A stretch of 48,864 nt of DNA, from positions 1 through 48,864 of IMG/VR virus record IMGVR_UViG_3300028802_000023; one strand, written 5' to 3'. The notes under the pieces were generated by a model, which worked only from the letters and a program-made list of their open reading frames with translations, was not told the DNA's origin and ran no database searches. Position 1 is the stretch's first letter; each line of letters opens with the position of its first letter. Source of the DNA: a virus. Position numbers and translations under genes: made by a program. Shown one piece after another: positions 4,371 to 26,921 of this stretch.

Positions 4371-4982
4371 ATGGTCAGGAAGGGCAAGAGCACCGAGTGG
4401 GCCGTCAAGCAGGCGGTCAACAAGGTGCTTGCGAGTTACCCCGAAAGTTACTGGTTCATGCCGGTGCCCTACGGCTACGGCAAGAGCACGCTGGACTATC
4501 TGATTTGTCACTACGGTTTGTTTATCGGCATCGAGACCAAAGCGCCGGGGGAAGTACCCACAGCCCGCCAGCGCCAAATCATGAAAGAGATCGAGAACGC
4601 TGGCGGCGAGGCGTTCGTCATCGACGGCGTCGATAAGTGCCACGCCTTGAGAGTTTTTCTGGAACAGGTGAAGCAAAATGCTGCCAGTCAAAGTAAGCCC
4701 CAGACACAAGGTGGTGGGGGTTCCACACGCGGAGAACATAGCCAATCTATTTCCAGCAGCGAAGTCGATGGATTTCGGACAAGTACCGCATATCATTCTA
4801 CCGCACCAACCGACCGAGACGTATCTGTTGCGCAAGATGGGCTACGACGTACCAAGCCCTATCCTGACGCATTACGACTGGAGAGGGGGGTCGCCGTTCG
4901 TAAGCCAAAGATCGACGTCGGCACTACTCACCCTAGAACAACGGGCGTACGTCCTGAATGGGATGGGGACGGGGAAAACTAA
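4371..4982 (+). CDS. VRR-NUC domain nuclease
   Basis: A 203-residue protein whose first 100 residues are a VRR-NUC PD-(D/E)XK nuclease: D42 in KSTLDYL, E55 and K57 in GIETK, Q67 in ARQRQ, then GGEAFVIDG. These nucleases cut branched or Holliday-type DNA and are often paired with a helicase, as here. ATG 4371 is chosen; a TTG at 4317 and an ATG at 4332 are in frame but lack a ribosome-binding site and would overlap the upstream gene further. The last 100 or so residues, after VFLEQVKQ, are Ser/Gly/Arg-rich and lie opposite another frame of the helicase gene for 305 bp. They look like non-homologous read-through rather than a domain. Confidence 0.85.
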   Translation: MVRKGKSTEWAVKQAVNKVLASYPESYWFMPVPYGYGKSTLDYLICHYGLFIGIETKAPGEVPTARQRQIMKEIENAGGEAFVIDGVDKCHALRVFLEQVKQNAASQSKPQTQGGGGSTRGEHSQSISSSEVDGFRTSTAYHSTAPTDRDVSVAQDGLRRTKPYPDALRLERGVAVRKPKIDVGTTHPRTTGVRPEWDGDGEN

Positions 4983-6243
4983 AGCTGCATTGTGGGCGTT
5001 CGATTACCTCAGAAGTAACGGCATCTGCGGCAAGATGCTGGTCAGCGCCCCCTTAAGTACGCTCACATTCACTTGGGCGAAGGAGATCTTCGCCACCGTA
5101 CCGCATTTGAAATACGCGGTGCTGCATGGAAGCCGCGCCAAAAGATTAGAGTTGCTGGACACCGACGTCGATATCTTCATCATCAATCACGACGGTCATA
5201 AAGTCATCCTTAACGAGCTGATGGTCCGCAAGGACATCAACGTGCTCGTCATCGACGAGCTTGCCGTCTTCAGGAATGGGCAGTCATCGCGCCACAAGAC
5301 CATGAAGCGCTTGGCTGATCGGATGGACTGGGTGTGGGGCATGACCGGCAGTCCAATACCCACATCACCAACGGATGCATGGGCGCAAGCGCGACTGGTC
5401 ACGCCACAGCGGGTGCCGAAGTACTTCTCCCGGTTCCGCGAAGATCTGATGGTGAAAACCAGCCCCTTCAAATGGGTGCCCAAGGCCGATGCCGTTGAAA
5501 AAGCATTCGCGGCGATGCAGCCATCGGTACGCTTTACGCTGGATGATGTTGTCGAATTACCCCCATTGATCGAGCGTTACGTTGACGTTGAACTGGGGCC
5601 GCAGCAGGAGAAGATATACAAAGCGCTGATGGCGCAGTGCTATGTCGCCGTGCAGAACCACGAGATCACCGCAGCCAACGCGGGGGCCGTGATGATGAAA
5701 CTTCTGCAGGTGTCCACCGGCTGGGTGTACTCACGCACGCGGGACATCGTTACACTTGATAACAATAACCGCATCCAAGCTTTGATGGATGCCATCGAGA
5801 GCACCGACCGCAAGGTTCTGGTGTTTGCACCCTTCAAGCACGCATTGGGAGGGATATCGGAAGCACTTACTTCGGAAGGTTACGAGCATGCAACAGTGGA
5901 CGGAGACACCCCTGCCAGCGACCGTGCGAAAATTTTTAACCTATTTCAGAACACTGATCGATATCGCGTTATACTGGCTCATCCTCAATGTCTTGCGCAT
6001 GGGATTACGCTTACCGCTGCCGATACTGTTATTTGGTTCGCGCCTGTCATGTCTCTGGAAATCTATGATCAGGCCAATCACCGTATTCGTCGTGTGGGTC
6101 AGGCGCACAAGCAACTGATACTTCATTTGCAATCGACACCGATTGAGAAAAAGATTTACAGAATGCTTCAGACAAAACAAAAGATCCAAGACAAGCTGCT
6201 GAAGCTGTTTGAGGAGGACACGGACTCTAACCCACAGAGGTAA
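4678..6243 (+). CDS. SNF2/DEAD-type superfamily 2 helicase
   Basis: A 521-residue SF2 ATPase of the kind found beside phage polymerases. Walker A GTGKT is at 97-101, motif II VIDELA (D193, E194), motif III MTGSP near 222, and the C-terminal helicase lobe ends with motif VI QANHRIRRVGQ. The N-terminal region with HYDWRG and FVSQR leads into the ATPase and looks genuine, which supports ATG 4678 with AGGTG 7 nt upstream even though this start lies deep inside the nuclease frame. It probably remodels or unwinds DNA for replication or recombination. The stop is followed by GAGGTAAC, which serves the next gene and matches half of the dispersed repeat. Confidence 0.92.
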   Translation: MLPVKVSPRHKVVGVPHAENIANLFPAAKSMDFGQVPHIILPHQPTETYLLRKMGYDVPSPILTHYDWRGGSPFVSQRSTSALLTLEQRAYVLNGMGTGKTKAALWAFDYLRSNGICGKMLVSAPLSTLTFTWAKEIFATVPHLKYAVLHGSRAKRLELLDTDVDIFIINHDGHKVILNELMVRKDINVLVIDELAVFRNGQSSRHKTMKRLADRMDWVWGMTGSPIPTSPTDAWAQARLVTPQRVPKYFSRFREDLMVKTSPFKWVPKADAVEKAFAAMQPSVRFTLDDVVELPPLIERYVDVELGPQQEKIYKALMAQCYVAVQNHEITAANAGAVMMKLLQVSTGWVYSRTRDIVTLDNNNRIQALMDAIESTDRKVLVFAPFKHALGGISEALTSEGYEHATVDGDTPASDRAKIFNLFQNTDRYRVILAHPQCLAHGITLTAADTVIWFAPVMSLEIYDQANHRIRRVGQAHKQLILHLQSTPIEKKIYRMLQTKQKIQDKLLKLFEEDTDSNPQR

Positions 6244-6246
6244 CTT

Positions 6247-7491
6247 ATGAACAAAAGGAATAAGAGACGCGCCCGATATTATCGGGATAAACCACCAGCC
6301 GATCTGGAAGTCGGGCTGCAGGATAATAGCCCTGAGTCAATACAACAGGCATTCGACGTACTGGCGGAAGCAGAAAAATCAGGCGTCACTACTATCGTCA
6401 AGACATATAAGTCATCGCATCCGGACGGCGCAAACTTCCACCACTACAATGACATCCGTACAGAGCGAAGGGACGGCCCCGACCATAACGTAGCAAGTAT
6501 GCTGTTGAACGCGGCAAAAGCTAAAACTCCGCCGCTAATGCTGGACGACCGCCCGATCATCGACCAGTTGCACGAAGCGACGTTCACCCATCCGCTGGGG
6601 ATGTACGCCATCGGTGACGACTATGCGTTGCGCATGCTTCTTCGCAAGGCGCATTGCTTCACGCTGGACGAAGCGACGTCGTCTATGGTGGCAGACTTTT
6701 CAATGGCGACTACCGTTGATCTGGAAGCAGCACGACGGCTGGCGATTCCGCCGTTCGACGTGACGTGGATTGAACTGAACAACCATGCACGCCTCAAGCG
6801 CATGTTTGAACTCAAAGCCCCGTTGGGGACGTACGACCCGAAAGAACCACCGACCTCGCGTATTGGCTGGCTGATCCACCCCGCGACAGAACTTGGCGGC
6901 TGGTACGCCACCTATGTTTCCGTGATCGACGTTGGCGTCTGGATCGCACCACTGTCCTACTGGTGGCATTCCGGATCACCAAACCCGAAAGGCATGGTGC
7001 CCACTGACAAAGTCGCCAAGCTCATAGAGTGGTTACTGTTCGGCACTGCAGGCAACGTCTTTGGTGAGGATGCTCACATGCATGCATCCAACCTGCATGT
7101 TCCTATTCAAGTGCTCGACGTTGGCGACACCAAGGACATCATGGCGGAAATGGCGGGCGAGCTGCGTCACATCTGGGGGTTCCTGATCGCGCTCGCTGCC
7201 GGACAGAACGGCGTCAAGCTTACTTCGCAAAGTAACCCGACCCGCGCACCGCCGATCATGAAAAACGGCAAACCGCTATTGCCACTTGAACACAAAGTGC
7301 TTCACTTGCATTTGCGGAAAGCCCCGCAAAAACTGATCTCGCAAGCGATCACGCACCATCACAACCGCCAGCACGACGTCCGGGCGCATTGGCGGACACT
7401 TAAATCGGGCAAGCGCGTGCCGATCAAGTCGCATCAGCGTGGCGATGTAAAGCTGGGGCGGATCGAGAAGACCTATCACGTAGAGAGGTAG
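6247..7491 (+). CDS. Conserved-looking phage protein, function unknown
   Basis: A 414-residue soluble protein between the helicase and the winged-helix fusion gene. GAGGT 6 nt before ATG supports the start. It begins with a very basic stretch (KRNKRRARYYR), has a mixed alpha/beta middle, and ends in a His/Arg-rich region with VRAHWR and a closing RGD..G.I.K.Y motif that I associate with unassigned phage replication-region proteins. I recognise no catalytic motif. The basic ends and its position in the replication operon suggest nucleic-acid contact; this is inference. Confidence 0.75.
   Translation: MNKRNKRRARYYRDKPPADLEVGLQDNSPESIQQAFDVLAEAEKSGVTTIVKTYKSSHPDGANFHHYNDIRTERRDGPDHNVASMLLNAAKAKTPPLMLDDRPIIDQLHEATFTHPLGMYAIGDDYALRMLLRKAHCFTLDEATSSMVADFSMATTVDLEAARRLAIPPFDVTWIELNNHARLKRMFELKAPLGTYDPKEPPTSRIGWLIHPATELGGWYATYVSVIDVGVWIAPLSYWWHSGSPNPKGMVPTDKVAKLIEWLLFGTAGNVFGEDAHMHASNLHVPIQVLDVGDTKDIMAEMAGELRHIWGFLIALAAGQNGVKLTSQSNPTRAPPIMKNGKPLLPLEHKVLHLHLRKAPQKLISQAITHHHNRQHDVRAHWRTLKSGKRVPIKSHQRGDVKLGRIEKTYHVER
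7220..7235. repeat. Variant palindrome with 6-bp arms
   Basis: TTACTT-CGCA-AAGTAA, within the unknown 414-residue gene, encoding LTSQSN. Confidence 0.65.
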
Positions 7492-7494
7492 CTG

Positions 7495-8250: not shown

Positions 8251-9295
8251 GATGCTTCCCCCCACATTTGGTCCTGTCTCGTCGGTATTCGGCAGCGACG
8301 ATACGGGCGACAGGTTGAACTCAGGCATCACCGCTGGTTATCCGATCCTCCGCATCAAGGGTAAGGTCTGGTCCATTACCCGTGGAGGTAACGAGCCGTT
8401 CGTGCTGATGCGGCCCGACGGCGACGGCCCGCGCAATTCGATCGATGTGGTATTGCTGTCGTCGTCAAAGTACGTCTCGAAGCTGTGGTACGAAAACGGT
8501 TACGAGGAAGGCAACACCAACCCGCCTGACTGTTTCGCACCCAACGGCATCGTGCCGGATGCTTCGTCAACCAAGAAGCAGCATGCTACCTGCGCCGGGT
8601 GCCCGCAGAACACATGGGGTTCGGCAATCAGCGCTTCAGGCAAAAAAGCGAAAGCCTGCCGGGACAGCAAGCGTGTGGCCGTTTCGCCACTCGGCGATAT
8701 CCGCAATGAAGCGTTTGGCGGTCCCATGTTGCTGCGGGTGCCCGCAGCATCGTTGTCCGACGTCGGGAACTACGGCATTGCCATGAAGGCGCGCGGCTAC
8801 GACTACTGGACCGTCGGCACCAAAATGTCGTTTGACTCGGCGGAAGCCTATCCGAAGCTGGTGCTGGAGCCGATCCGGCCGCTGACCGACGATGAAGCTG
8901 TCGCCGTATTGGAGCTGCGTGAGTCACCTGCAATTGCCGCGATTTTGGCGGAGGGAACTGACGTCATGCAGGAAGCGCCGGTTGAACCGGCGATCAAGCT
9001 GCCGCCTTCGTTCCCTCAACCTGCTGCTGTTACCCCACAGGTAACTGCTCCTCCGCCGTCCAAGCCAACGCTCGTTACCCCAGTGATGGGGGGTAATGGG
9101 TTTGGTGGGCCTGAACCGGCTGCGCCGCCTTCGAAGACAAGCCCGAAGGCAGTGAAGAAGGTTCAGGCCGCAGCGCCGCCGCCAGCGCCAACGCCTCCTA
9201 AGCCCCCAGTTCAGGAGGAAGCGGCAATGGCGGCGGCCGGTAGCTTTGAGGACACTCTGGACGCTCAAATAGAAGACTTGCTGCCGGGAGCATAA
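8243..9295 (+). CDS. Candidate phage ssDNA-binding protein
   Basis: A 350-residue protein. Residues 1-235 form a globular domain with a Cys cluster C119-x2-C122 (CAGCPQNTWGS) and a third Cys in ACRDSKR, suitable for zinc or a structural site. Residues 240-330 are a Pro/Ala-rich flexible linker. The extreme C-terminus is acidic and amphipathic (FEDTLDAQIEDLLPG), the arrangement seen in phage and bacterial SSBs where the tail recruits partners. Its place directly before the primase-helicase fits. The SSB call is inferred from architecture and context rather than a recognised OB-fold motif. AGGAG lies upstream of ATG 8243. The linker carries one dispersed repeat (9029-9045). Confidence 0.65.
   Translation: MTKMLPPTFGPVSSVFGSDDTGDRLNSGITAGYPILRIKGKVWSITRGGNEPFVLMRPDGDGPRNSIDVVLLSSSKYVSKLWYENGYEEGNTNPPDCFAPNGIVPDASSTKKQHATCAGCPQNTWGSAISASGKKAKACRDSKRVAVSPLGDIRNEAFGGPMLLRVPAASLSDVGNYGIAMKARGYDYWTVGTKMSFDSAEAYPKLVLEPIRPLTDDEAVAVLELRESPAIAAILAEGTDVMQEAPVEPAIKLPPSFPQPAAVTPQVTAPPPSKPTLVTPVMGGNGFGGPEPAAPPSKTSPKAVKKVQAAAPPPAPTPPKPPVQEEAAMAAAGSFEDTLDAQIEDLLPGA
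9029..9045. repeat. Dispersed 17-bp palindrome
   Basis: GTTAC-CCCACAG-GTAAC. It encodes VTPQVT in the linker of the candidate ssDNA-binding protein. Confidence 0.8.
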
Positions 9296-9302
9296 GACTA
9301 CT

Positions 9303-9325
9303 GGGGGGCGGGAAACCGTCCCCCC
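9303..9325 (+). promoter_or_regulatory. Strong GAAA-capped hairpin before the primase gene
   Basis: Six G (9303-9308) plus CGG pair with CCG and six C (9320-9325) around a GAAA tetraloop, with one bulged T. The 52-bp gap contains little else apart from GGAAGG before ATG 9348. There is no U tract, so it is probably an attenuator, mRNA stabiliser or processing site rather than a full terminator. Confidence 0.5.
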
Positions 9326-9347
9326 TTCCACCCACGGAAGGTAAACA

Positions 9348-12302
9348 ATGCTGGACGCTCAGGAATATCTGGCCAAGGTCTTACCTTGGCCACAAGACGA
9401 TGACGCACCCGCGTACATCAATATCCACTGGTCCACCGAAACGCTCAACCAGTACGGCAAGCCGTGGTGGTCCGGCCGCGCCACGCGCTCCGTCAAGGAA
9501 GCGATTAACACCATCAAGTGGGCGCTGACGCTTGCCGACGTCAAGGATATCTACGTCTGCATGTCCTCGCAAAGCGAGGCGACGCCGAAAGTTTCCAAGA
9601 AAGGAAATGGTTATTTACTGCCGATCCGCTCGCAGGCGAACGCCGTTGCGTTCAAAAGCCTGTTCATGGATCTCGACTTCAAGGACTACGCAACCCCCAA
9701 CGAGGCGACCAATGCACTGGCGGAATTCGTCAAGACTACCGGACTGCCCAAGCCAAATGTCATCGTCAAATCAGGCGGAGGATTGCACGTCTACTGGACC
9801 GTCGACCGCGCACTCACCCGTGATGAATGGCAACCACTATCGAATGCCCTCGCCAACGCTGCCAAGACTCATCATTTTAAATGCGATACGGGCTGTACTA
9901 TTGATGCTGCTCGTATTCTGCGTATCCCAGATACTTTTAACCGCAAGCTCGCTGTACCTCGTGCTGTTACCCTTGCTGGTGGGCGCACTGGCGGCGACTA
10001 CTCTGTGGCCCGACTGGAGAAATCGCTAGATCCCTATAAGGTTGCCATAGTTACCAAACAGGTAACTGCACCTGCATGGACCAGCGTGCTGCCGCCGAAG
10101 CCGCCGATTGCAGGCGACAGCGATCTGGCGATGGGCATCAACTTCAACACGGGTCCGCCGATCAACATCAACGATGTGGCGCGCGAATGCCCGTTCATCA
10201 ACGAAGCGATTACCTCGGGAGGTAAGAACTTTGCTAACCCACTTTGGAATCTTACAACGCTTCTCTCCACATTTACGGATGGAGGACGTAATGACGCTCA
10301 TGCGATGGCGCACGGACACGCTACGTATACAAAAGAGTCTACAGATGAACTCTTTGACCGCAAAGAAAACGAGCGCAAGAGCAAAAATCTTGGCTGGCCT
10401 GCGTGCAGCACGATCTCTAACAACGGATTCGCCGGGTGCCAAGGCTGTGTTCATCTTGCGGCAAATCGATCTCCTCTCAACTTTGCCGCAACTCAGCTTG
10501 TTACGACGAGCACAAGTACGCCAAATGCGCCCCAAAGCGCTGCAGCGCCTGTTATCGACTTACCCGTCGGGTATTCACGACGACCTGACGGAATTATTTG
10601 CGTCATCCTCGTTAATGAAGATGGCACGCATACCCACGAACCCATTTGCAGCTACCCCATGCACACCCCATCCATCCAAGTCTACCCAATCTACACCCTG
10701 AACTTCTCAAGCATTACCGAAAGCGGCAGAACCAACCAATTGATCGTGCCGACCGGCGATCTCTCGGCAAAGGATTCCATGCGTAGATGCCTGCTCAAAC
10801 AGGGTGTAGCCTTGAAGGAGAACGAGTCAAAGCGCGTGATGGAGTTCTTCATGTCGTGGATCGAGAAACTGCAGAAGACGAAGTCGATGGTCGTGAGCAG
10901 TGCTCCGTTTGGCTGGAGCATCGACTCCAAATCTGAAGTCGAAGGCTTTGTCTACGGCGGCAATCTGTGGATGCCAACCGGCGACCGCGCGGCGGCTAAC
11001 CCCGACCCCGTATTGGCTCGCAGGTACAAGCCAACAGGCGCGATTGATCCGTGGGTGGCGGCAGCGAAACTGATCACCGATCAGAAGCGTCCCGCGCTCG
11101 ATGCCATCGTGGCGTCGGCGTTCGCCGCACCGCTGGTCCGGTTCTGCCATGAACCGGGCGTGCTCATGAGCACGTATTCCACAAAATCAGGTATCGGTAA
11201 AACTTCCGCTATGCGTATAGCGCAGGCGGTATGGGGGCATCCGGTTCGTGCGATGCAGGGGCTGGACGACACCAGCAACTTCGTGTTCGGCAAAATCGGC
11301 CAAATTCAGAATTTACCGATGTACTGGGATGAACTGAAGACAGAGGAAGATCACAAACGGTTCGTCAAGATTGCGTTCAACCTGACCAAACAAAAAGAAA
11401 AGGACCGCATGACCCAGAACGCCACCATGCGTGAATCAGGTGCGTGGCAGACGCTATTGGTCAGCGCTTCCAACGACAGCATAATGAACTTCGTAGTTCA
11501 GCAGACTAAGCAGACGGCAGCCGGTATCTATCGTCTGTTCGAATACGAGGTGCCTGCTGCCACCAACAGCGTCGGGCAAATTGATCAAGCCGATTTCTCC
11601 CGTGTCGTTGGAAGGCTCGACGACAATTACGGCCACATAGGGCTTGAGTATGCTCGTTACCTCGGGAGTAACCATGTAGACATAAGTAAAGATGTCGAGG
11701 CTTTTTACAAGGCAATTGGCAACGAGATAAACACGCTGAACGAGGAACGCTATTGGCGCGTTATGCTTGCTACGTTGCTCAAGGGTGCGGAGTACGCCAA
11801 CAAGCTGGGCTTCACCAACATCGACGGCTTCGCGCTGAAAAAATTCCTGTTCGGCGTCATCGATTCGCTGCGTGCCGAGAAGAACGACCAGCCTGTGGAC
11901 TTGGGCAATGCGTTCAACGTCTCCAACGTGCTGGCGCAATTCCTCAACGCACATCGATCAAGACACACGCTACGCACCAACCGCATCCATATAGGACGCG
12001 GCAAACCCGCCAAGGGCACGATTGCGATCAAGACGGTCGATCCCAGCAGGCTGGAAGCTATTCGCGTTCACATTGGCGAAGACGACAAGCTGATCCGGAT
12101 CAGCAAGACTTACATGCAGGAGTGGTTACTGCAGAATGGCTACTCTTCCAGTGCTATCCTGAAGGCGATGGCGCTGGAATTCGGCTCGGTTTCGATGCAA
12201 GGGCGCATGGGGGCTGGCACTGAATATGCAGGCTCTGGCGAGTACCTGCTGGAGATGGACTTGGCCAAGAGTGCCCACACCAACTTTATCGACGAGGCGT
12301 AA
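9348..12302 (+). CDS. AEP-type primase fused to an SF3/DUF927-like helicase
   Basis: A 984-residue replication protein. The N-terminal third is an archaeo-eukaryotic primase-like domain: DLD at 108-110, SGGGLH with H147, and the CTIDAARILRIPDTFNRK motif. A linker with Cys clusters (WPACSTISNNGFAGCQGC) may bind zinc. The C-terminal half is a DUF927-type ATPase: Walker A SGIGKT (G617, K618, T619), Walker B MYWDE (D661, E662), then an Asn sensor region SASNDS. It should make primers and drive unwinding at the phage fork with the family A polymerase. GGAAGG precedes ATG 9348. It holds three of the dispersed GTTAC palindromes (10049, 10210, 11656). Confidence 0.88.
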   Translation: MLDAQEYLAKVLPWPQDDDAPAYINIHWSTETLNQYGKPWWSGRATRSVKEAINTIKWALTLADVKDIYVCMSSQSEATPKVSKKGNGYLLPIRSQANAVAFKSLFMDLDFKDYATPNEATNALAEFVKTTGLPKPNVIVKSGGGLHVYWTVDRALTRDEWQPLSNALANAAKTHHFKCDTGCTIDAARILRIPDTFNRKLAVPRAVTLAGGRTGGDYSVARLEKSLDPYKVAIVTKQVTAPAWTSVLPPKPPIAGDSDLAMGINFNTGPPININDVARECPFINEAITSGGKNFANPLWNLTTLLSTFTDGGRNDAHAMAHGHATYTKESTDELFDRKENERKSKNLGWPACSTISNNGFAGCQGCVHLAANRSPLNFAATQLVTTSTSTPNAPQSAAAPVIDLPVGYSRRPDGIICVILVNEDGTHTHEPICSYPMHTPSIQVYPIYTLNFSSITESGRTNQLIVPTGDLSAKDSMRRCLLKQGVALKENESKRVMEFFMSWIEKLQKTKSMVVSSAPFGWSIDSKSEVEGFVYGGNLWMPTGDRAAANPDPVLARRYKPTGAIDPWVAAAKLITDQKRPALDAIVASAFAAPLVRFCHEPGVLMSTYSTKSGIGKTSAMRIAQAVWGHPVRAMQGLDDTSNFVFGKIGQIQNLPMYWDELKTEEDHKRFVKIAFNLTKQKEKDRMTQNATMRESGAWQTLLVSASNDSIMNFVVQQTKQTAAGIYRLFEYEVPAATNSVGQIDQADFSRVVGRLDDNYGHIGLEYARYLGSNHVDISKDVEAFYKAIGNEINTLNEERYWRVMLATLLKGAEYANKLGFTNIDGFALKKFLFGVIDSLRAEKNDQPVDLGNAFNVSNVLAQFLNAHRSRHTLRTNRIHIGRGKPAKGTIAIKTVDPSRLEAIRVHIGEDDKLIRISKTYMQEWLLQNGYSSSAILKAMALEFGSVSMQGRMGAGTEYAGSGEYLLEMDLAKSAHTNFIDEA
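10049..10067. repeat. Dispersed palindrome with 7-bp arms
   Basis: AGTTACC-AAACA-GGTAACT, in the primase-helicase gene, encoding VTKQVT. Confidence 0.8.
10210..10225. repeat. Variant palindrome with 7-bp arms
   Basis: TTACCTC-GG-GAGGTAA, in the primase-helicase gene, encoding ITSGGK, the same residue class as EVTSGGN at 46028. Confidence 0.7.
11656..11672. repeat. Dispersed 17-bp palindrome
   Basis: GTTAC-CTCGGGA-GTAAC, in the primase-helicase gene. It encodes RYLGSN, the same frame as the copy at 17534-17550. Confidence 0.8.
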
Positions 12303-12503: not shown

Positions 12504-12505
12504 AC

Positions 12506-12860: not shown

Positions 12861-12864
12861 CCCG

Positions 12865-13212: not shown

Positions 13213-13223
13213 GGGGAAACGTC

Positions 13224-13562
13224 ATGCAGATCAGAAACGGCCCAGTGTTTCAGGCAGGACAATTCCTCTCTGATGCTTTCAGTCTCGCGCAACTAGATCC
13301 GTACTTTCTTATTACACCGGATGCATGGACCGCACCCGCGAACCTGCGCTTCATGTTCTCGCCGGATGGCTTAACCTACAATGTAGTCCACTATGACGGG
13401 GTTCCGCTGGAAGTGCTATGCCCCGCGCCGAATGCTGCGGTCAAGCTACGGCCGGAAATGAGGACATGGCCTAACGGCACCTATCTTAAATTCTTGTCCG
13501 CCTATAATGATTCCAAGATTATCCAGCCCGTGCTGCGTACATTCAAACTGGTCGCAGCTTAG
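13224..13562 (+). CDS. Tandem paralogue B, beta-rich protein of unknown function
   Basis: A 112-residue protein with AGGGGAA before ATG 13224. It matches the upstream gene in motif order and spacing: GPVF, AG, PDAWTAPANLRFMFSPDG, C-APNAA, TWPNGTYLKF and RTFKLV. It is the last gene of the rightward early operon. Its stop TAG shares bases with the stop of the convergent late operon, leaving no room for a terminator between them. Confidence 0.65.
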   Translation: MQIRNGPVFQAGQFLSDAFSLAQLDPYFLITPDAWTAPANLRFMFSPDGLTYNVVHYDGVPLEVLCPAPNAAVKLRPEMRTWPNGTYLKFLSAYNDSKIIQPVLRTFKLVAA

Positions 13563-13840
13563 GGGCGCGAACCTTTATTACGTTCCCAGCCGCGATTGTG
13601 CTTTTTGGTTTCGACCCGCAAGTTACTTCGGGAGTTACTCCCGCCTGAGATCACCGACTTCTTGTGACCGACGTCTTTCCCGGCAATGGCGGCATCCCCC
13701 AGATCCTTGCGCACGATGGCGCGGGCTTGGTTCTGCTGCGAACGGTTCTTGATGATATGCGGCTGTGAATTGTACCCCCTGTCCATTTTTTTGATTTGCG
13801 CGGGTGTGCGGTGCGATGACGGATCGCGAGTGCCAGCCAT
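13559..13840 (-). CDS. HNH-like phage protein
   Basis: A 93-residue basic protein. The C-terminal half reads GKDVGHKKSVISGGSNSRSNLRV...HNRGW, the order of an HNH nuclease core (H of GHKK, N of SNLR, final H/N of HNR) as found in small phage proteins of this type. The usual acidic residue before the first His is Gly here, so activity is doubtful. It is the last gene of the leftward late operon, and its stop overlaps the early operon stop (13559-13562). The GSNSRSN part is encoded by a direct-arm copy of the dispersed repeat (13622-13638). Confidence 0.6.
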   Translation of the reverse strand: MAGTRDPSSHRTPAQIKKMDRGYNSQPHIIKNRSQQNQARAIVRKDLGDAAIAGKDVGHKKSVISGGSNSRSNLRVETKKHNRGWERNKGSRP

Positions 13841-14128
13841 CTAATCCTCCTCAAACTTCTTGCGGTCATAGAGTGGATTAGAGCGGTCGCGCTGACCTAA
13901 TTCCTGTTGCAACTCCCGGAATTTGGTACCTTCCCAAATACCACGAGCTGTCGCTAAAGCATGCTCGCCAAAGCTCCTACCACTGGAACCTTCGCTTTCC
14001 TTAGCCACGCGACGCACGGCTTTTTTATACTCGCTACCGCGAGGGTCCGGTAAAGGATACGGCACAGGCCCACCGTCTTCGAATCGAAACGACTTTCTAT
14101 AGTTGCGAGTATCCTTTACCGGCTTCAT
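13841..14128 (-). CDS. Small late protein with FRFEDGG motif
   Basis: A 95-residue charged protein. Its start has a strong GGAGG 5 nt upstream, embedded in a direct-arm copy of the dispersed repeat (14130-14147). The N-terminus YRKSFRFEDGGPVPYP matches the FAEGG-type motif of four other late proteins. The remainder is helical and rich in Arg/Glu/Lys. It is a candidate minor virion component based on location at the end of the internal-protein cluster. No family is recognised. Confidence 0.6.
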   Translation of the reverse strand: MKPVKDTRNYRKSFRFEDGGPVPYPLPDPRGSEYKKAVRRVAKESEGSSGRSFGEHALATARGIWEGTKFRELQQELGQRDRSNPLYDRKKFEED

Positions 14129-14143
14129 GGTTACCTCCCGAGG

Positions 14144-14542
14144 TTACTTGGCTTTCTTCTTGCGACGCTTCGCAACCCTGTCGGTTACTTTCTTCGCGGT
14201 CTTCTTGACGGAGGCCGCCTGCTTCTTGACAGCCGCTACGCGCTTCTTGGCTTTCGCCACGCGCTTCTTGGCCTTCGGAATGCCTCTAGGCATGTCGTCT
14301 ACCTCTTGTTGCTCACGATCTTCCTGATCGTGCTCAACACCCTTATCATCCATGTCTTCCTGCATCAACGCGGGTGGCGGTATGGCGTGGACCATTGCCA
14401 TGTACGCATTGGCTTCTTCCTGCTCGACAAATCGAGCACGCTCGATACCCGTCGCATCGCGAATCACATAAGACGTCGATGCAGTAGACTGATCGATTTC
14501 CATAGTGACTGGTTTGTCTTCGTCCTTGATGGTTGTCGGCAT
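14144..14542 (-). CDS. Late protein with acidic middle and histone H1-like basic tail
   Basis: A 132-residue protein in three parts. Residues 22-52 hold YVIRDATGIERARFVEQEEA, matching the 55-residue protein encoded just upstream. Residues 60-85 are strongly acidic (EDMDD, EHDQEDREQQEVDD). The last 45 residues are nearly all Lys, Ala and Val in a repeating KK-x-AK pattern ending KRRKKKAK. The tail resembles bacterial histone H1-like proteins and should bind DNA or RNA. It could condense DNA in the capsid or coat the injected genome; both are inference. ATG overlaps the previous stop (TAATG). Confidence 0.65.
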   Translation of the reverse strand: MPTTIKDEDKPVTMEIDQSTASTSYVIRDATGIERARFVEQEEANAYMAMVHAIPPPALMQEDMDDKGVEHDQEDREQQEVDDMPRGIPKAKKRVAKAKKRVAAVKKQAASVKKTAKKVTDRVAKRRKKKAK

Positions 14543-15285: not shown

Positions 15286-15292
15286 AGTTACC

Positions 15293-18200
15293 TCAGGGGT
15301 TAAAGATGCCTGCCGCTCGCTCGTAGATCGCTTCGGTACGCCTGCTGGTCGTAATGCCGTGCTCGGTAGTTTTCTCTTCGGTTTTGACGCGGCGTGCGGC
15401 GTTGGTCAGATCTTTCTGGGAAATCTGTTCGTCTCTGGGGCGGCCCTCGTTGTAACGCTGCACTGCACGCTGCGCCTTGACCTTGTCGGCCCCGGTGGCA
15501 GCTACCCACGCCTTCGTCAGTGCGGTGCGCTCACCACTCTCGCGCATGCTCTCACGCTTGAAGGCACCCTGCATCGCGCCCAGTTCAGCCTTGCTGGAGG
15601 GCGTGAAACCCAGCGCCCGAACCGTGGCGTCCCAACCACCGAACTGTTCCTGCGTGGTCTTGCCGCCCGCGCCTTTCTTTTCGCCTGACAAGCCAACCGC
15701 TGCTTTCGTGATGTCGCCAACCGTTCGAAGGGGAGAGATCTTTTCAATGGCCGTAGTCCAGTCGCCCTTGAACGCCGCCTGTGCCCCCTGCACTTGGTTG
15801 AGCAGGAAGCTGCCGGACGCACCTGCCATGGTGTCGAACAGGAACGTCTTGATATCGGTGTCCTTCTGGCTCTTTGGCGTGCCCCGTACCAGCAGCGAGT
15901 CCAGCCCCATGCGGCCCGACACCTCGATGCCCAGCCCGCGATATAATCCCTTCGATAGTATCTCCCCGCCCTTCTGTCCGGCCACCCGTGCAGCAAGCTG
16001 CCGCACCGCGTATTCGTAGTCGTCGGGGGTGAATCCGGTCGCGCCGACCATGTTGGCCGCCACCAGCGCAAGCTTGAACGGCTCCGTCGGCATGCCCAAA
16101 GCACCCGCCACCAGCCCGTGGGTCACCATCAGGCCAGCGAACTGCTTCATGGCTTGGGGGTCACCCTTCAACGCCCCACCCATGATGTTACCCAAGAGGT
16201 AATAAGTCTTCTGCGGGAACTTCTTGAACTGCAAAAGCGGCTTGCCGTACTTGGTATTGAACAGCGGCGCGGCGTTCCAGTTGGAATAGTCGCCCATCGT
16301 TTCGTGGGCCTTTGTATAGGCGTAGTGCATTGCGGCTTCGTGATTGCCGCCGTTTTTCTTGTATTCGAGATTGTACGCCGTCAGACCAGTGACGGTGCGG
16401 TTGACGGCTTCGATGGCGGTACCGACTTGGTTGGCCATCAGGTCCGCACGGTCCAGCGCCCGTCCGGCAACGTTGCCCTCGGGGTTGGCGAACTTGCCGA
16501 CTTCGAAGATGGAAGCGTTGGAATACAAATTGCGGGCGTCCATGTAGTCGATGACGTCCTGCATGCGGCTGATCTTGTCGGAGCCTGCGACCTTGGACTT
16601 GCCGATGGTTTCCTTGAACAGCTTGACGTAGTTGGTGAAGCCTGCGTCGTTAGTATATGCCTTCGCCATGTCGCGAACGCCCGACATTACGCCCGCGCGC
16701 CCACCGATTATGTTATAGGAATCAAGCAAGGCGCGTGTCGTTGCGGCAATGCCGTGGTCCCCACCAATCACTGGCAAGGACGTTGTCCACGGCTCGTGTG
16801 CGTTGATAAGATGGTAGCTAGGCCCAGCCAAGAACGACAACCGGGTAACCTGAAGCAGCCGACTGACAACACCGGGTTTATGTTCGTCCGCCGCCTTCGC
16901 GGCACTGCCGTAGACCCGGTCGACGAACTCTTGGTACACCTCCTCGCGGCGAATGTTGTCGTTGTCGTCCTTGTGAGCCTCTTTGTACTCGCGCATTTCA
17001 GCGAAGATTTTGTCGATCTTTGGTCGATGCTGAAGCTTGGCTAGGTGGTTTGTCGTCATACGGGCGTAGTCGCCGGTCACCCGTCCCAGATCGCGCGACA
17101 TGCCCGCCACGTTACGGCGTTGCTTCATCGAGTTTTTGATGCTGGTCGTCCCCGACATGCCCAGTGACAGGTCGTGGAACATCTCCCGCATTGCCTGCCG
17201 CTGGGTGGCGTCGGCATCCTTGTAGCGCTGCTGCTTCTCCAGCGACCGCAGTATCGTCCCCATCGCCCCCTGAATATCGCGGTCGTTCTGGTACGCCTTC
17301 TCGCGGGTGTGGACGCGGGAACCCACCAACCCCGCTTCCGCCAGCAGCGCCTTGCTGTTCAGCGCCTCGGCTTCGGTGGCGTGAAACTCGGTATGCTGGG
17401 TTTGCATGGCTACGCGATACGCCGGGATCGCGTCGGGCTGCTCCTTCTCCATGATTTCAGAGGGGTTATTCTTGTCCACCCAGACCTTCTGGATCTGGTG
17501 GGGGGTCAGCTTATTTCCCTGCGGGGTGTGTGAGTTACTTCGCAGGTAACCCTTCACGGCAGCGCGGGCGCGGGCGTTGCCGTACTCGCCGTTCTTGGGG
17601 GTTGGATCAATGAACTGCAGCGTGTTATCGTTGATCTTGGTGGCGTTGGCAGGCGTTGAAAGCTCGTGGCTGGCGGTTGAAGAGAAGTCGCCATAGCGCC
17701 GGAACGGCACGTACCAGCCGTGACGTCTTTTCAGCTCCTTCACCTGATCCAGCGCGTTAACCAGCTTCGAATCCGCCCACGTCTCCCGGTCGGCTTCAGT
17801 CAGTCCGTCGTTATGGATACGCTCCGCCAGCGCCGGGTCGTGGATGTTCCCCTCGGCGAGGATGTTGTTGATCGTTTCCCGTGAAACGGCGTTGTGGATA
17901 TCCTTGTAGAACTTCACCGCATTGCGAATGGTGTTTCGAACCGGATCAATACGCGGGTCCGCCCACGCCTTCTGCAGTCGGGCGACTTCGTTCTTGGCTT
18001 GCACCCCCATCAGCTTGTCTTTGCCAAGATGGTCGTTGTTGCCCTCGATATTGACGTCGTGCAGCGAGCCGTCGAACAGCACGTCCTTGGCAAGCCGCAT
18101 CGCTTCCGGGTGCGTCCGTTCGGCCTTGGCGATGGCGACCGTGGCTTTCAGCCCGCCGTACTTCTCCAAAATGGTGTCCTTGGCGCGCTCCATGAAAGCG

Positions 18201-21200
18201 CGGGCTTCGAACAGCCGATGGAGGATCTTGGACGGGCCGAAGTACTGCTCGTTGCGACGGGCCATCTGCCACAACGTGGAGATCTTGTTCTTGGCGCGGG
18301 CCAGACTGCCCTTGGTGTTGGTGCCGGTATCGGCCGTGTAGCCGGTCACCCGCTCCCGCAAAGCCGCCGTATCCAGTGCCCGCGTGCTGCCTTCCAAAGC
18401 TCTGGGGTACTGCCGATACGTCCCATCCCTAACGCGGTCACCACGTACATCCTCCAGCGCGGGGCTGATCACCTTCATCGCCTCGTCGAGGAACGAGTTG
18501 ACGTGCGGCAGATCCTTGAGGCCCAGCATCTCGCGGACCTTGTTGGTGAACGCCCCCCACAACGACCACGGCTTGGCTTTGGTCGGCAGTGCCAATTGCT
18601 TGGCCAGATGGTCCGACACCGTCAGACTGGCCATGACCTCCTGCAGTTCCGGGTTCGACATGGCCTCGGCGACGAACTCATGCATGTCCGTCAGGGCATA
18701 TTCGGCATGCTCCCGGCCCGCCTGTCGCGTGGTCTTGTAATCCAATTCCCGCATCAACAGCTCGACGCGGCGCTGAAACATCTTACTGTGGTCGAGCTTG
18801 TAGACCAGCGCGGCATGGATCGCCTCGTGGACCACCGTGTGGGTGAACTGCCTCTCGTCGTTGACGATATCGGATCGGATGGCGATAAAGCCGTGTGCCG
18901 TATCACCGTATTGATGATGGAAGCCCAAGGGCGCGGTACCGCGAGCGCGCTTCATCGCGTCGGTCATCAGGTCCGCATTGACGATGTAAAGCGGGACATG
19001 CTCCAGAATTTCCGCCAGCCGCCGCCGCGTAAAGTCCTGAATGTAACGCGGCATAGCGCTTAAGTGGCTGAAATCAAGCTGCTTTAAAACATCAGTCGTC
19101 TTCAACCTTGGGCTGATGGCGTCTTGGTCGTGATTGAAGATATCCCGCGCCTGATGGAGCTGCGTCTCCCAAATATCGCTTTCTTTCAAAGTGGAGTCGT
19201 TACTCAGCTTCCTTTCATTGGCAAGCCATGCATCCGCCCGTGTCCGGTATTCTTCGTTACGGGCCTCCTGAGCGGCTAGCTTAGCCATATGCTCTTCAAA
19301 TTCCGCGTCGAGTTCCGCATCGGTCATCGACGCCCATTCTTCGTTCAGGCGGATCTTGCCACCGCCAGCCTTGAACGCAGCCAGCTTCGCCGCCCGTGCC
19401 TCACTAGCAGCCTTGCGTTCGGCCGCCGCCTTTGTACGTGCCGCCAGCGCTTCAGCGTCCGCCTTTTCTTCTTTGAGCCGAATAATCCGCTCCTGCGGGG
19501 TCTCCTTGGCGACCGTCCCCGTAGTGTGTTTCTCCCCCTCGTCGGCTGCTTTTTCGGTTGCTTCGGGAATAACGTCTTTAACTACTTCGTCCTGTTCAGC
19601 TTTAGCCTTCGCCGCGATCTGTGTATCGCCATCAAAAGGCCCGCGCCCAAGATCCTCCTTGAACCACTTCCCGATCTTATGGACCGTGTCCACCGAGTTG
19701 GCGTCCTGCATCATCCGCAATGGCTGTTCGGACAGCTTGGCGTGATCAGCATCTGACAGGTTATTGACCCAGCGCCGCACCGTGTTGAGCGCTTCGGCAA
19801 CCGGCTTGTAGCCTTGATGGAAGCCCTCCTGACTGGTGTCGATAATGTGCCAGACTTTGCGCGGCTGCGGTTCGTCTTCGGTTACTTCAGAAGTAACCGG
19901 TTCCGGTTCAGGAAGTTTAGTCTCAGTTTTTTCTTCGACCTTTCCTTCCTGTTTCGGTTCAGGCTTGGTTGGTTCTGGTTTTGTTTTTTCCGTGATTTTT
20001 GTTTCAGGCTTCGTGATCGCCACTTTCTCGGCGACCTTCTTGGGCATCGGCTTCTTGGCCGGGGCAGGAGCCGGGGCAGGAGCCGGGGCTGGCGCTGCTG
20101 CGGCAGCGTCCTTCCTGATCTTGGCAAGTATTTCAGCGGCGGCTTTTTCCTTGGCTTCGCCTTCCAGTATTCGCTCGCTACCGGGGACCGCGCCGGTCGA
20201 TTCGGCGCTCTTGACCGCCCCCTTGGTTTCACCCCCGGCTTCGATCTTGGCCAGCGCGCCTTCGGCCTGTTCAGCCGTCGCGCCACGTTTAGCCGCCGCG
20301 ATAGCGTCCCCCGCTTCCGTACGACTCATATGGATCAGATCGGGGGCTTTCTCGTTGTAGGCGGCAATGAAATTCTCGACCCGCCGCTTCTGGTCAGCGT
20401 CAAGACTCTCGCCCTTCTCCAGCAGCTTCTGGATGTCAACTAGTTCACGCAAATACTGGGTGTGGACCGAACGCGCCTCGCCGGTCGCCGCTACCTTGCC
20501 ACCTACCCGCTTCGGCAGGCTGCGCGCCCAGCGAATAGCTTCTTTTTCCGTAGGCTTCTGACCCTTCCAACCCCTAGTATTGTAGTAGCCCTTAAGATGC
20601 GGCAGTTCCGTCGCGACGTCCTCGCGAAGCTCCATCTTGGTCTTGAGCGCTGTGACCAGCGGCTTCAGTCTTTCGCCCAGTGCCTGCCGCTCTTTCTTGT
20701 CCTTCGGGACTGGCAGCTTTCTGACTTTTTCAGCTTCTTCGTTCTCAGCCGCCGTGTGCTCCCCGAATATCTGCTCCGATTGTGTGGTGCGCTCCGCCTC
20801 TGCCGCTTTGATGTGGGACGCTTTCTTGCCCTTTTCGACTTTTTTCTCAGTCTTCTCAGCTAAGCCCTCTTTTTCCCGCCTCGCTTGGGCGACTTGCTGC
20901 GCCTTCTGCTTGCCTTTGCCCTCTGCCGATATGTCCTGCAGCACCCTACCAGTGGGTTTGCTTCCCGTACTTCCCGGAGCCGTCGGTACTTGCTCAGTTG
21001 TCGACGCCATAGGGGTAATAGCAGGGGGTAAGTTAGTCGGAGCCGTCGCTACTTGTTCAGGTACCGACGGCACCGCAGGCGACTCTGACGTTTCTGCCGG
21101 GGTACGCGCACGCGCAGAAACGTCCGTCGGCGCTCCGGGGGGCGCACTCACGGGCGTCTTGATAATCTGCTGGATCTGTTCGGGCGTGAGCTGCGCAGCT

Positions 21201-22603
21201 TCTTCCGGCAGGAAGCCCCGCTTCGCCATTTCCGTAAGCGTCGCTTCGTCCAATTGTGGCTTGGCTGGCGTTACACCAGCCGGTTGCTGTGACGGAGTTA
21301 CTTCCGGGGTAACGCCCGCAGCAGGCCCCGCAGGGGGGCTAACAGGAGCCTGCTGCGGCTGTGCCGCTGGAGGTGGAGGTGGAGCTTGCGGCGCAGGCTG
21401 TACCGCTGCCGCTGGGGGCGGCGCGGCTGGTTGTGGGACGGGAGGCTCGACTGGCGCGGCTTTTGCAGCGGGCGGTTGTTCGGCAACGAGCGCTGCTTCT
21501 ACGGCCGGATCGACGCCAACGGTTACGCCCTTCGCTGCTGCAACCTGTGTGGCTTTGGCGGGCGCTGCGGCTGTATCTTGTTGGGGAACGGCGACTTGCC
21601 CTTGCCCAGCCGGGGCTTGTATTTCAGTTGCTTCTTCTCCAGCCCTTTTGTCTCTGATTTCATCTGCTTTCGCCTTTCCCTTGCCACCGCCAATCCCGGA
21701 TGCCGCACCGAAGCCAGCGCCCAGCACCAGACCGGTCAGCGCCCGATCCAGCATCTCGCTCTGGTCGTAGCCCTTGCGTAAGCCGCCCTCGATCTCACCC
21801 TTCTGCGCCGCATAAGCGCCATAGCCTTCTTCGGCGAACTCGGTCGCGCCACCCTCCAGCGCAGACGCTGCAATGCCATGCTTGCCGAGAACACCACCAC
21901 CCTTTGACGCGGCGGTCTTGCCAGCGGCGATAGCGGCTTCCTCGGCAGCGCCGCGCCCCAGCCCACGAACGATATTGCCAGCCGGACCAAACACGCCGGT
22001 CCCGGCCCCCAGAATGAACGCCAGCGCGGGCTTCGCCCCCACCATGATCGCGTTGAGTTTCTGGCGGGCAGCAGCTTCCTCGTCCCCACCATCGCGGAAG
22101 CCGTTGTAAAGTTCGCTCTGCGCCCGCAAGTCCACATCCGACATTTTGTCGGGCTTCTTGGTGATCTCGTCGACGACGTCACCGGCCGCGAGCCAGCCTG
22201 CCGCGCCACCCGTGGCGGCCATCGCGGCGATGCCTTCACCCACCAGCGCGCCGGGAAGCGCCGCTGCCACGAGGTACGGCGACATGCCGACGGCCTTCAG
22301 GGCAAGGCTGGAGACCGGATGCTCCCAGAACTTTTCACTTGTCACACCTGCCGCGTTACGGGCGCGGCCTTCCTCGGTCATTCCACCTTCAATGTCTTCG
22401 CCAAGGTTACGCGACGCCGTCTGCAGCCCCCGGAATATCTGGGCCGCTTCCGGCTGCTGCCCGGCTTCGAACATCTGCCGCATCAGGCCCGCGCTGCCCG
22501 CGCCGATCCCGGCTACGGTAGAGCCAGCCGCCCGGCCGTAATCACCCCAAGTTACTTCTTTCGCTTCCTCGGGGTCGGGGGTCTTGAAATAATCATAGCT
22601 CAT
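15293..22603 (-). CDS. Giant polyvalent internal virion/ejection protein with HEXXH metalloprotease motif
   Basis: A 2436-residue protein, by far the largest here. Residues about 95-320 hold several Gly/Ala-rich hydrophobic stretches that could insert in a membrane. Residues 330-570 are a Pro/Ala/Gln linker, and 570-1140 are Lys/Glu-rich with coiled-coil segments. A zinc metalloprotease-like motif VHEAIHAAL sits near 1257, with a possible third ligand region DMHEFVAEA near 1307. The rest is helical, ending with LLQFKKFPQKTYYLLG and THGLVAGALGMP near 2125-2175, seen in phage polyvalent proteins. It probably enters the host with DNA, spans the envelope and clears or processes proteins. Start at 22603 overlaps the previous stop (ATGA). 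The linkers carry three dispersed repeats. Confidence 0.85.
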   Translation of the reverse strand: MSYDYFKTPDPEEAKEVTWGDYGRAAGSTVAGIGAGSAGLMRQMFEAGQQPEAAQIFRGLQTASRNLGEDIEGGMTEEGRARNAAGVTSEKFWEHPVSSLALKAVGMSPYLVAAALPGALVGEGIAAMAATGGAAGWLAAGDVVDEITKKPDKMSDVDLRAQSELYNGFRDGGDEEAAARQKLNAIMVGAKPALAFILGAGTGVFGPAGNIVRGLGRGAAEEAAIAAGKTAASKGGGVLGKHGIAASALEGGATEFAEEGYGAYAAQKGEIEGGLRKGYDQSEMLDRALTGLVLGAGFGAASGIGGGKGKAKADEIRDKRAGEEATEIQAPAGQGQVAVPQQDTAAAPAKATQVAAAKGVTVGVDPAVEAALVAEQPPAAKAAPVEPPVPQPAAPPPAAAVQPAPQAPPPPPAAQPQQAPVSPPAGPAAGVTPEVTPSQQPAGVTPAKPQLDEATLTEMAKRGFLPEEAAQLTPEQIQQIIKTPVSAPPGAPTDVSARARTPAETSESPAVPSVPEQVATAPTNLPPAITPMASTTEQVPTAPGSTGSKPTGRVLQDISAEGKGKQKAQQVAQARREKEGLAEKTEKKVEKGKKASHIKAAEAERTTQSEQIFGEHTAAENEEAEKVRKLPVPKDKKERQALGERLKPLVTALKTKMELREDVATELPHLKGYYNTRGWKGQKPTEKEAIRWARSLPKRVGGKVAATGEARSVHTQYLRELVDIQKLLEKGESLDADQKRRVENFIAAYNEKAPDLIHMSRTEAGDAIAAAKRGATAEQAEGALAKIEAGGETKGAVKSAESTGAVPGSERILEGEAKEKAAAEILAKIRKDAAAAAPAPAPAPAPAPAKKPMPKKVAEKVAITKPETKITEKTKPEPTKPEPKQEGKVEEKTETKLPEPEPVTSEVTEDEPQPRKVWHIIDTSQEGFHQGYKPVAEALNTVRRWVNNLSDADHAKLSEQPLRMMQDANSVDTVHKIGKWFKEDLGRGPFDGDTQIAAKAKAEQDEVVKDVIPEATEKAADEGEKHTTGTVAKETPQERIIRLKEEKADAEALAARTKAAAERKAASEARAAKLAAFKAGGGKIRLNEEWASMTDAELDAEFEEHMAKLAAQEARNEEYRTRADAWLANERKLSNDSTLKESDIWETQLHQARDIFNHDQDAISPRLKTTDVLKQLDFSHLSAMPRYIQDFTRRRLAEILEHVPLYIVNADLMTDAMKRARGTAPLGFHHQYGDTAHGFIAIRSDIVNDERQFTHTVVHEAIHAALVYKLDHSKMFQRRVELLMRELDYKTTRQAGREHAEYALTDMHEFVAEAMSNPELQEVMASLTVSDHLAKQLALPTKAKPWSLWGAFTNKVREMLGLKDLPHVNSFLDEAMKVISPALEDVRGDRVRDGTYRQYPRALEGSTRALDTAALRERVTGYTADTGTNTKGSLARAKNKISTLWQMARRNEQYFGPSKILHRLFEARAFMERAKDTILEKYGGLKATVAIAKAERTHPEAMRLAKDVLFDGSLHDVNIEGNNDHLGKDKLMGVQAKNEVARLQKAWADPRIDPVRNTIRNAVKFYKDIHNAVSRETINNILAEGNIHDPALAERIHNDGLTEADRETWADSKLVNALDQVKELKRRHGWYVPFRRYGDFSSTASHELSTPANATKINDNTLQFIDPTPKNGEYGNARARAAVKGYLRSNSHTPQGNKLTPHQIQKVWVDKNNPSEIMEKEQPDAIPAYRVAMQTQHTEFHATEAEALNSKALLAEAGLVGSRVHTREKAYQNDRDIQGAMGTILRSLEKQQRYKDADATQRQAMREMFHDLSLGMSGTTSIKNSMKQRRNVAGMSRDLGRVTGDYARMTTNHLAKLQHRPKIDKIFAEMREYKEAHKDDNDNIRREEVYQEFVDRVYGSAAKAADEHKPGVVSRLLQVTRLSFLAGPSYHLINAHEPWTTSLPVIGGDHGIAATTRALLDSYNIIGGRAGVMSGVRDMAKAYTNDAGFTNYVKLFKETIGKSKVAGSDKISRMQDVIDYMDARNLYSNASIFEVGKFANPEGNVAGRALDRADLMANQVGTAIEAVNRTVTGLTAYNLEYKKNGGNHEAAMHYAYTKAHETMGDYSNWNAAPLFNTKYGKPLLQFKKFPQKTYYLLGNIMGGALKGDPQAMKQFAGLMVTHGLVAGALGMPTEPFKLALVAANMVGATGFTPDDYEYAVRQLAARVAGQKGGEILSKGLYRGLGIEVSGRMGLDSLLVRGTPKSQKDTDIKTFLFDTMAGASGSFLLNQVQGAQAAFKGDWTTAIEKISPLRTVGDITKAAVGLSGEKKGAGGKTTQEQFGGWDATVRALGFTPSSKAELGAMQGAFKRESMRESGERTALTKAWVAATGADKVKAQRAVQRYNEGRPRDEQISQKDLTNAARRVKTEEKTTEHGITTSRRTEAIYERAAGIFNP
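17534..17550. repeat. Dispersed 17-bp palindrome
   Basis: GTTAC-TTCGCAG-GTAAC, N7 spacing. Inside the polyvalent gene, where the minus strand encodes YLRSN, a different reading frame from the VT-type copies. Confidence 0.8.
19880..19898. repeat. Dispersed palindrome, perfect 9-bp arms
   Basis: GGTTACTTC-A-GAAGTAACC is a perfect palindrome around one central A. Inside the polyvalent gene, encoding PVTSEVT. Confidence 0.85.
21297..21313. repeat. Dispersed 17-bp palindrome
   Basis: GTTACTTCCGGGGTAAC, identical base for base to the copy at 31028-31044 in an unrelated gene. It encodes VTPEVT in the Pro/Ala linker of the polyvalent protein. Confidence 0.85.
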
Positions 22604-26631: not shown

Positions 26632-26903
26632 ACACCGGGCGCACCGGCCAGCATCTTCTGCATATTTACTTCGTTACGTTCGGCGGCACTCGGCAGTGTA
26701 CTGCCCATCGCAATCTCTTCTCGCGTGCCGCTGACCGATCCCCCTTTAGACAGACTATCCTTAATGGTGTCGTTCACCAGTTCATCAACAGCAAGACGCG
26801 CCCGTTCATGCACCGCGTTCTGAATCCAGAAGTCTATATCGACCGCAACGTACTCCATCCCCTTCTGCTCGCAATCGTCCAGTGTGATTGTGTACGTGGG
26901 CAT
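26628..26903 (-). CDS. Hypothetical 91-residue late protein
   Basis: ATG 26903 has GGAGG 5 nt upstream within the repeat copy 26905-26921, so it is chosen over an upstream in-frame ATG at 27014 inside the next gene. The protein begins MPTYTITLDDCEQKGMEYVA and continues as a charged helix (VHERARLAVDELVNDTIKD). It resembles small unassigned proteins that sit before GNAT and internal virion genes. No domain is claimed. Confidence 0.65.
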   Translation of the reverse strand: MPTYTITLDDCEQKGMEYVAVDIDFWIQNAVHERARLAVDELVNDTIKDSLSKGGSVSGTREEIAMGSTLPSAAERNEVNMQKMLAGAPGV

Positions 26904-26904
26904 T

Positions 26905-26921
26905 GTTACCTCCGAAGTTAC
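26905..26921. repeat. Direct-arm copy of the dispersed repeat overlapping a ribosome-binding site
   Basis: GTTAC-CTCCGAA-GTTAC: both arms point the same way at the usual N7 spacing. On the minus strand it contains GGAGG serving ATG 26903, and it overlaps the 3' end of the C1q-like gene. Confidence 0.7.

Follow-up and report, generated by a model that had tools for sequence, protein, structure and literature searches.

A single class of dyad-symmetric repeat, with T or A at each arm centre, recurs across the genomes of a rhizobial phage family

Genome-wide repressor sites that lie outside promoters have so far been described in mycobacteriophages, as asymmetric and strand-oriented elements. 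The stoperators of cluster A mycobacteriophages (L5, Bxb1, TipsytheTRex) are asymmetric sites of 13-14 bp to which a monomer binds and whose orientation follows transcription (PMC9283540, PMC6550527), and they lose their function when turned round (PMC9283540; PMC6550527). Another element, the Start-Associated Sequence (SAS/ESAS) of cluster K mycobacteriophages, is an asymmetric repeat of 13 bp that occurs only at gene starts in the non-structural half of the genome (PMC3203893). Here we describe a multicopy repeat in the virus record IMGVR_UViG_3300028802_000023 of IMG/VR, the whole 48,864-nucleotide (nt) stretch of which is referred to below as the window, and in related phages. The repeat pairs two half-sites, GTTAC or its reverse complement GTAAC, and an earlier note on this DNA had taken it to occur both as palindromes and as direct repeats. 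The comparison of the two forms shows one class of site, the inverted repeat GTWACY-N5/6-RGTWAC (W, T or A; Y, pyrimidine; R, purine), in which the outer G/C is degenerate and T is favoured at the arm centre by about 5:1.

GTTAC and GTAAC differ from each other only at the centre base, so that every "direct" pair can also be described as a palindrome with a single centre mismatch. When the direct pairs are read as GTTAC...GTTAC, the left arm is followed by Y in 80/82 cases and the right arm is preceded by R in 80/82, whereas the base following the right arm shows no bias (A 19, C 17, G 30, T 16). Since a GTTACY repeat would need Y at this last position as well, the pairs are not GTTACY...GTTACY repeats. 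Among left arms facing a perfect right arm at N7 or N8, substitutions at position 3 are T to A in 79 cases, T to C in three and T to G in one; position 1 is replaced by A in 103, C in 71 and T in 23, while position 4 is altered six times in total and position 5 twice. The half-site is (G)TWACY, and it is always inverted.

The independence of the two arms was assessed by counting the core T[AT]ACY-N5/6-RGT[AT]A in 24 sequence sets, with the expectation calculated per genome. The 426 inverted, 177 direct and 15 divergent sites (the last with both centres changed) compare with 437, 156 and 26 predicted for independent arms, pooled counts that are not independent of one another because the genomes are related. 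The 31 core sites of the window divide into 21 inverted, 8 direct and 2 divergent, as compared with 20.2, 9.7 and 1.2 predicted. The two arms vary almost independently, and the direct pairs are shown to be sites that combine a T-arm with an A-arm. It had been argued that direct pairs and palindromes share their half-site and spacing, and on this point the earlier note holds, the simplest reader of both being the same protein. What is not supported is that the second arm is flipped, as the inner flanks stay inverted and the change is confined to the T-to-A centre. Sites usable in either arm orientation had appeared odd for a symmetric dimer, but with a T-to-A change tolerated at the centre such a dimer would suffice. 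Tandem binding of the OmpR/PhoB type to direct half-sites becomes unnecessary, and pairs with both half-sites in one orientation, flanks included, as that binding mode implies, were not what was found.

All six strings that had been listed as direct or near-direct repeats are present in the window at the positions given for them. Exact GTTAC/GTAAC pairs number 11 in inverted arrangement (nine at N7, two at N8), five in direct (one at N6, three at N7, one at N8) and two in divergent (one at N7, one at N8), and at adjacent spacings such pairs are nearly nil. The counts were compared with 400 codon-shuffled and 300 first-order Markov copies of the window. The five direct pairs at N6-N8 exceed the 0.85 of the shuffled and the 0.10 of the Markov copies, and no control, including the 400 shuffles, reached five; the direct-arm pairs are therefore real and above chance, and the lack of excess over codon-shuffled copies that would have refuted the earlier note is not observed. 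The 11 inverted pairs stand against 0.59 in codon-shuffled copies, and the core TTACY-N5/6-RGTAA occurs in 21 inverted and 8 direct copies against 0.76 and 1.05. Throughout the window and its relatives, strong pair excess is limited to N7 and N8. Direct pairs do keep the spacing of the palindromes, but this gives a pitch of either 12 or 13 bp and not solely the proposed 12. The pair at 5866 exists as written, with a mismatched outer arm base (CTTAC). The N6 pair at 2027-2042 is likewise present, but it is part of an overlapping cluster at 2016-2054 and falls outside the family-wide N7/N8 class, the inner Y..R flanks being found in 3/10 direct pairs at N6 versus 78/81 direct and 137/140 inverted pairs at N7/N8.

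The phage family is rhizobial, its members including RHph_TM27A of Rhizobium phaseoli, a 60.6-kb contig of Bradyrhizobium genosp. SA-3 and a prophage on two contigs of Bradyrhizobium sp. 139. In the 8.7-Mb genome of the SA-3 strain, the phage contig holds 9/12 matches of the two exact patterns, and in strain 139 all 15/15 exact-pattern matches lie on the two phage-bearing contigs, where core sites end as host genes start. A host motif is ruled out by this confinement to phage DNA. A pattern scan of IMG/VR returned 10 stretches, and every one of them that has genes in common falls within this phage family. Several of the records compared are fragments. Core counts vary widely among relatives: G017 has 68 inverted sites and no direct ones, G020 has 21 inverted and 31 direct sites, and G019 has none. 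In the more distant phages Rollin (Pseudomonas) and DC1 (Burkholderia), of which 49 kb each were covered, there is no core site, the Rollin sequence containing runs of N. Between the window and its relative G009, arms are 88.6% and flanks 71.8% identical (p=4e-10); arms are also more conserved than flanks in G004 (p=0.0016) and likewise in G005 (p=0.003), the difference being not significant in G003. Four relatives carry the 4435 site at the corresponding position; there the codon that precedes TAC is AGT, CGT or TGT, its GT being constant. As judged from these comparisons, a constraint at the DNA level is shown to act on the arms.

The location of the sites relative to genes was analysed with the annotation of RHph_TM27A and, for all other sequences, with a simple home-made caller that rewards Shine-Dalgarno motifs, alongside an open-frame stop test that is independent of the caller. 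In 28 of the 79 exact direct sites, a called upstream gene has its stop codon in the TAA of the left arm (GTAAC), compared with 1/79 for the right arm of direct sites, 3/288 for inverted sites and 102/1756 for any GTAAC. By the caller-free test, the left-arm TAA closes an open frame of 60 codons or more in 88/177 direct sites; the corresponding values for other TAAs are 37/177 for the right arm of direct sites and 189/852 for inverted sites, both 21-22%. Exact direct sites also lie 0-10 nt before a called start more often than exact inverted ones (25/79 versus 10/144, p=4e-6), and 98/144 of the latter are within genes. Altogether, 34% of inverted and 64% of direct sites are at gene boundaries, against 15% at random. 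In RHph_TM27A, 4/5 direct sites stand directly ahead of annotated starts, and in the Bradyrhizobium sp. 139 prophage a run of direct sites fills entire gaps between consecutive early genes (e.g., TAACCCCACGAGGTAAcc-ATG). These linkers often run from a stop codon through a Shine-Dalgarno motif that borders the other arm on its inner side to a start codon a few bases on, a Shine-Dalgarno-like GAGG lying in the inner right flank of direct sites. Half of the direct sites carry A because the GTAAC arm then also holds the TAA that ends an open frame, and only this linker subset has a direction. The overlap explains what looks like a direct repeat, with no need for a new mode of binding, and, if the sites are operators, places three constraints (operator, stop codon and ribosome site) on one stretch of DNA.

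The reading that we favour, with moderate confidence, is that this one class of site represents dyad-symmetric, stoperator-like operators of a phage protein. A phage-encoded dimeric DNA-binding protein would read each arm separately and would be blind to T:A versus A:T at the arm centre, as for minor-groove or shape readout. In the prophage state, this protein might bind genome-wide, most densely on the early operon, and might there block the initiation or elongation of transcription; given their dyad symmetry, the sites would act in either direction. Site density is 12-16 per 10 kb in early regions and 3-8 in late ones, a 2-5 times difference. The presence of temperate relatives is indicated by a tyrosine integrase encoded in six records (G003, G004, G005, G015, G020 and G024), and the Bradyrhizobium sp. 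139 prophage has a serine recombinase at the phage/host boundary with a core site within its gene. It can be noted that integrase type varies inside one phage family, the serine recombinase (L094 3486-5162) having its tyrosine counterpart in those six records, and that EVB29_077 of RHph_TM27A (L077 23936-27019) is annotated as a putative integrase while the window's homologue of it (9348-12302) has its matches among primase/helicase families. The full picture, of temperate rhizobial phages with dense, regular dyad-symmetric stoperators, a single T:A/A:T-blind phage protein that reads them in both directions, and a 17-18 bp operator combined with stop codon and ribosome site in the early operon, is put forward tentatively, as possible rather than probable.

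Several observations weigh against the operator interpretation. Direct sites are slightly above the independent-arm expectation (177 versus 156), an excess for which the linker effect accounts only qualitatively. No integrase was found by a search of the window, G009 and G017, so that a temperate life is only a possibility for this phage itself, and no protein with a recognisable DNA-binding domain was found in every site-bearing genome. Finally, the even site spacing in G017 and RHph_TM27A would suit an architectural role equally.

This last point leads to a rather unlikely alternative, that the sites belong not to a repressor but to a nucleoid-like or ParB-like protein with a phage-wide part in DNA architecture, segregation or replication. 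Spacing is over-dispersed, with regional densities kept, both in G017 (68 sites, no gap <200 bp, coefficient of variation (CV) 0.58, P<0.001) and in RHph_TM27A (CV 0.62, P<0.001), the two sequences richest in inverted sites, and the search that found no integrase covered G017 of the two; moreover, sites lie within long structural genes as well as in intergenic DNA. On the other hand, spacing is not over-dispersed by CV in the window and G009, density follows gene class with its early excess, gene-boundary sites are above random, and no ParA/ParB-like gene was recognised among the proteins scanned.

It is improbable that the repeat is an RNA or translation element at gene starts, comparable to SAS, whose arms would form a hairpin over the ribosome site. 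The placement of the 25 direct sites just ahead of called starts is indeed that of SAS (PMC3203893), and the GAGG of the inner right flank would fit, although the association with starts leans partly on a caller that rewards Shine-Dalgarno motifs. Most exact inverted sites are within genes, and RNA pairing would favour the compensated divergent sites (15) over the mismatched direct ones (177), the opposite of what is seen.

Recognition by a modification enzyme or nuclease is very doubtful: a bipartite palindrome with a spacer of fixed length and a small HNH-like protein conserved in the family would suit such an enzyme, but the HNH-like family is also present in G019, which has no sites, there are two spacer lengths, and the sites accumulate instead of being avoided and are placed at gene junctions. 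Genuine direct repeats to which an OmpR/PhoB-type protein would bind in tandem, beside a separate palindromic use, as the earlier note proposed, are more doubtful still. The direct strings are real and above chance and a winged-helix gene is present, but the inverted inner flanks, the unbiased outer flank and a centre base that is the sole difference oppose this, as do the 12-13 bp pitch and fold matches that are weak and of MarR type. Chance or codon usage is ruled out for practical purposes, as even with GTWAC over-represented in the window (139 versus 84 codon-shuffled) the arms are conserved above their flanks, the same spacing recurs in relatives and 29 core sites stand against 1.8 in shuffled copies.

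For the protein that would read the operators, three candidates were examined, none of which is proven. The first is encoded at 2887-3216 (+) and has 109 amino acids (aa), with an N-terminal helix (residues 3-31) followed by a winged helix according to structure prediction (mean pLDDT 82). An OmpR/PhoB-type domain had been assigned to it; the winged helix is supported by the prediction, but the protein has no match above cut-off in Pfam or NCBIfam, including the OmpR/PhoB C-terminal domain profile, and its best fold matches are weak and MarR-type, as is a weak PHROG match (E 1.5e-4). A search for homologues found none in G017, G018 or G014; as a universal reader the protein is rejected, and with 68 sites in G017 its absence there argues against it as the sole one. 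Its absence from G020 carries no information, since polA and the SNF2-type helicase gene are truncated and abutting there (L037 8396-9956), with the genes between them missing by deletion or misassembly. Direct sites make up 97/325 in genomes with the winged helix and 2/89 in those without it (p=9e-10), a contrast confounded by descent. The second candidate, an HTH_17 protein of 100 aa (47687-47989, minus strand), is found in 7/8 near-complete or window sequences; it is missing in RHph_TM27A and is rejected as a universal reader. The third is a helical non-structural protein of about 250 aa common to the near-complete genomes, for which no family or fold match was obtained.

Within the window, three direct sites form stop/start linkers on the minus strand. 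At 14130-14147 the minus strand reads GTAACCTCGGGAGGTAAC-c-ATG, where the left-arm TAA is the stop of the open reading frame (ORF) 14144-14542(-), GGGAGG is the Shine-Dalgarno motif and ATG starts ORF 13841-14128(-). At 26905-26921 (minus strand GTAACTTCGGAGGTAAC-a-ATG) the TAA ends ORF 26918-27433(-), and the following minus-strand ORF (26628 onward) begins directly past the site. At 15287-15303, a site with an outer mismatch (minus strand TTAACCCCTGAGGTAAC-t-ATG), it is a TGA in the spacer that stops ORF 15293-22603(-), and ATG starts ORF 14962-15285(-). On the plus strand, the outer-mismatch site at 6227-6244 (CTAACCCACAGAGGTAAC-tt-ATG) ends the SNF2-type helicase gene (to 6243) with the TAA of its right arm, and the ATG at 6247 opens the next ORF. 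The remaining direct sites are intragenic: GTTACCCCGAAAGTTAC at 4435-4451 within ORF 4317-4982(+), which resembles a phage endonuclease family; GTTACTTCGGGAGTTAC at 13622-13638 within ORF 13559-13840(-), encoding the small conserved HNH-like protein; and, with outer mismatches, CTTACTTCGGAAGGTTAC at 5866-5883 within the SNF2-type helicase gene (4678-6243) and GTTACCTAACGGGTTAA at 1643-1659 within the family A DNA polymerase gene (78-2012).

The cluster at 2016-2054, 3' of the polymerase gene, is composed of four overlapping half-sites (TTTAC-N6-GTAAC-N6-GTAAC-N7-GTTAC) and includes, besides the N6 pair, a divergent pair at 2038-2054; an N6 pair similar to that of the cluster occurs in L015 at 6010. 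The other divergent pair, GTAACCTCATGAGGTTAC at 3002-3019, is a perfect palindrome with both centres changed from T to A and lies within the winged-helix gene. Inverted sites of the form GTTAC-N7-GTAAC are located at 9029-9045, 10050-10066, 11656-11672 (with a similar site in similar context in L007), 17534-17550 (with an identical site and nearly the same flanks in L015), 19881-19897, 21297-21313, 31028-31044, 34026-34042 and 41929-41945, and those of the form GTTAC-N8-GTAAC at 39411-39428 and 46028-46045.

Some further features of these genomes deserve mention. The ORF at 2125-2763 (+) encodes a PEP-CTERM motif protein (PF07589, with E 2e-4, above the cut-off), which is uncommon in a phage, with a homologue solely in G009 among the genomes compared. 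By eye, the ORF at 48118-48747 (-) resembles a nuclease of the GIY-YIG type (GVYALKN...YVGCTANLRRR) that ends in a helix-turn-helix, the latter with weak Pfam matches, and is possibly a homing endonuclease. Other repeats are over-represented in relatives, namely ACCAT-N3-ACCAT (or its complement) in G003, G004, G005 and G008, and ACTGG-N4-ACTGG and ACCGG-N4 types in G016 and G018.

As regards known systems, the sites share with stoperators their 20-30 or more copies across the phage genome, many of them in short intergenic gaps, and a consensus that drifts between relatives. Copies are numerous and mostly outside promoters, with 31 core sites in the window and up to 68 in a relative. Stoperators are bound by the immunity repressor of a temperate phage. 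Unlike stoperators, the sites described here are 16-18 bp long, dyad-symmetric and often within genes, and belong to rhizobial phages; the asymmetry and orientation with transcription that define stoperators are absent, though the mode of action may still be similar. If silencing proves true, this symmetric alphaproteobacterial network would indicate that orientation is not needed for roadblocks, and would offer a second, independent case for how roadblocks halt RNA polymerase. The likeness to SAS resides in repeats that overlie the Shine-Dalgarno motif just 5' of starts and sometimes enclose the upstream stop codon, but here most sites are palindromes inside genes and spread genome-wide, and only 10/144 inverted and 25/79 direct exact sites are within a few nt of a start. 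In Alphaproteobacteria, the LexA boxes (GTTC-N7-GTTC) and CtrA sites (TTAA-N7-TTAA) are sites of host regulators; the phage pairs resemble them in their direct-looking arms about one helical turn apart and in bacterial class, and differ in their half-sites and in being nearly absent from the host chromosome. MarR-type winged-helix repressors bind palindromes of 16-20 bp, which the present sites match in length and symmetry and the 2887-3216 protein in its weak fold matches, while differing from that family in having no Pfam or NCBIfam match above cut-off.

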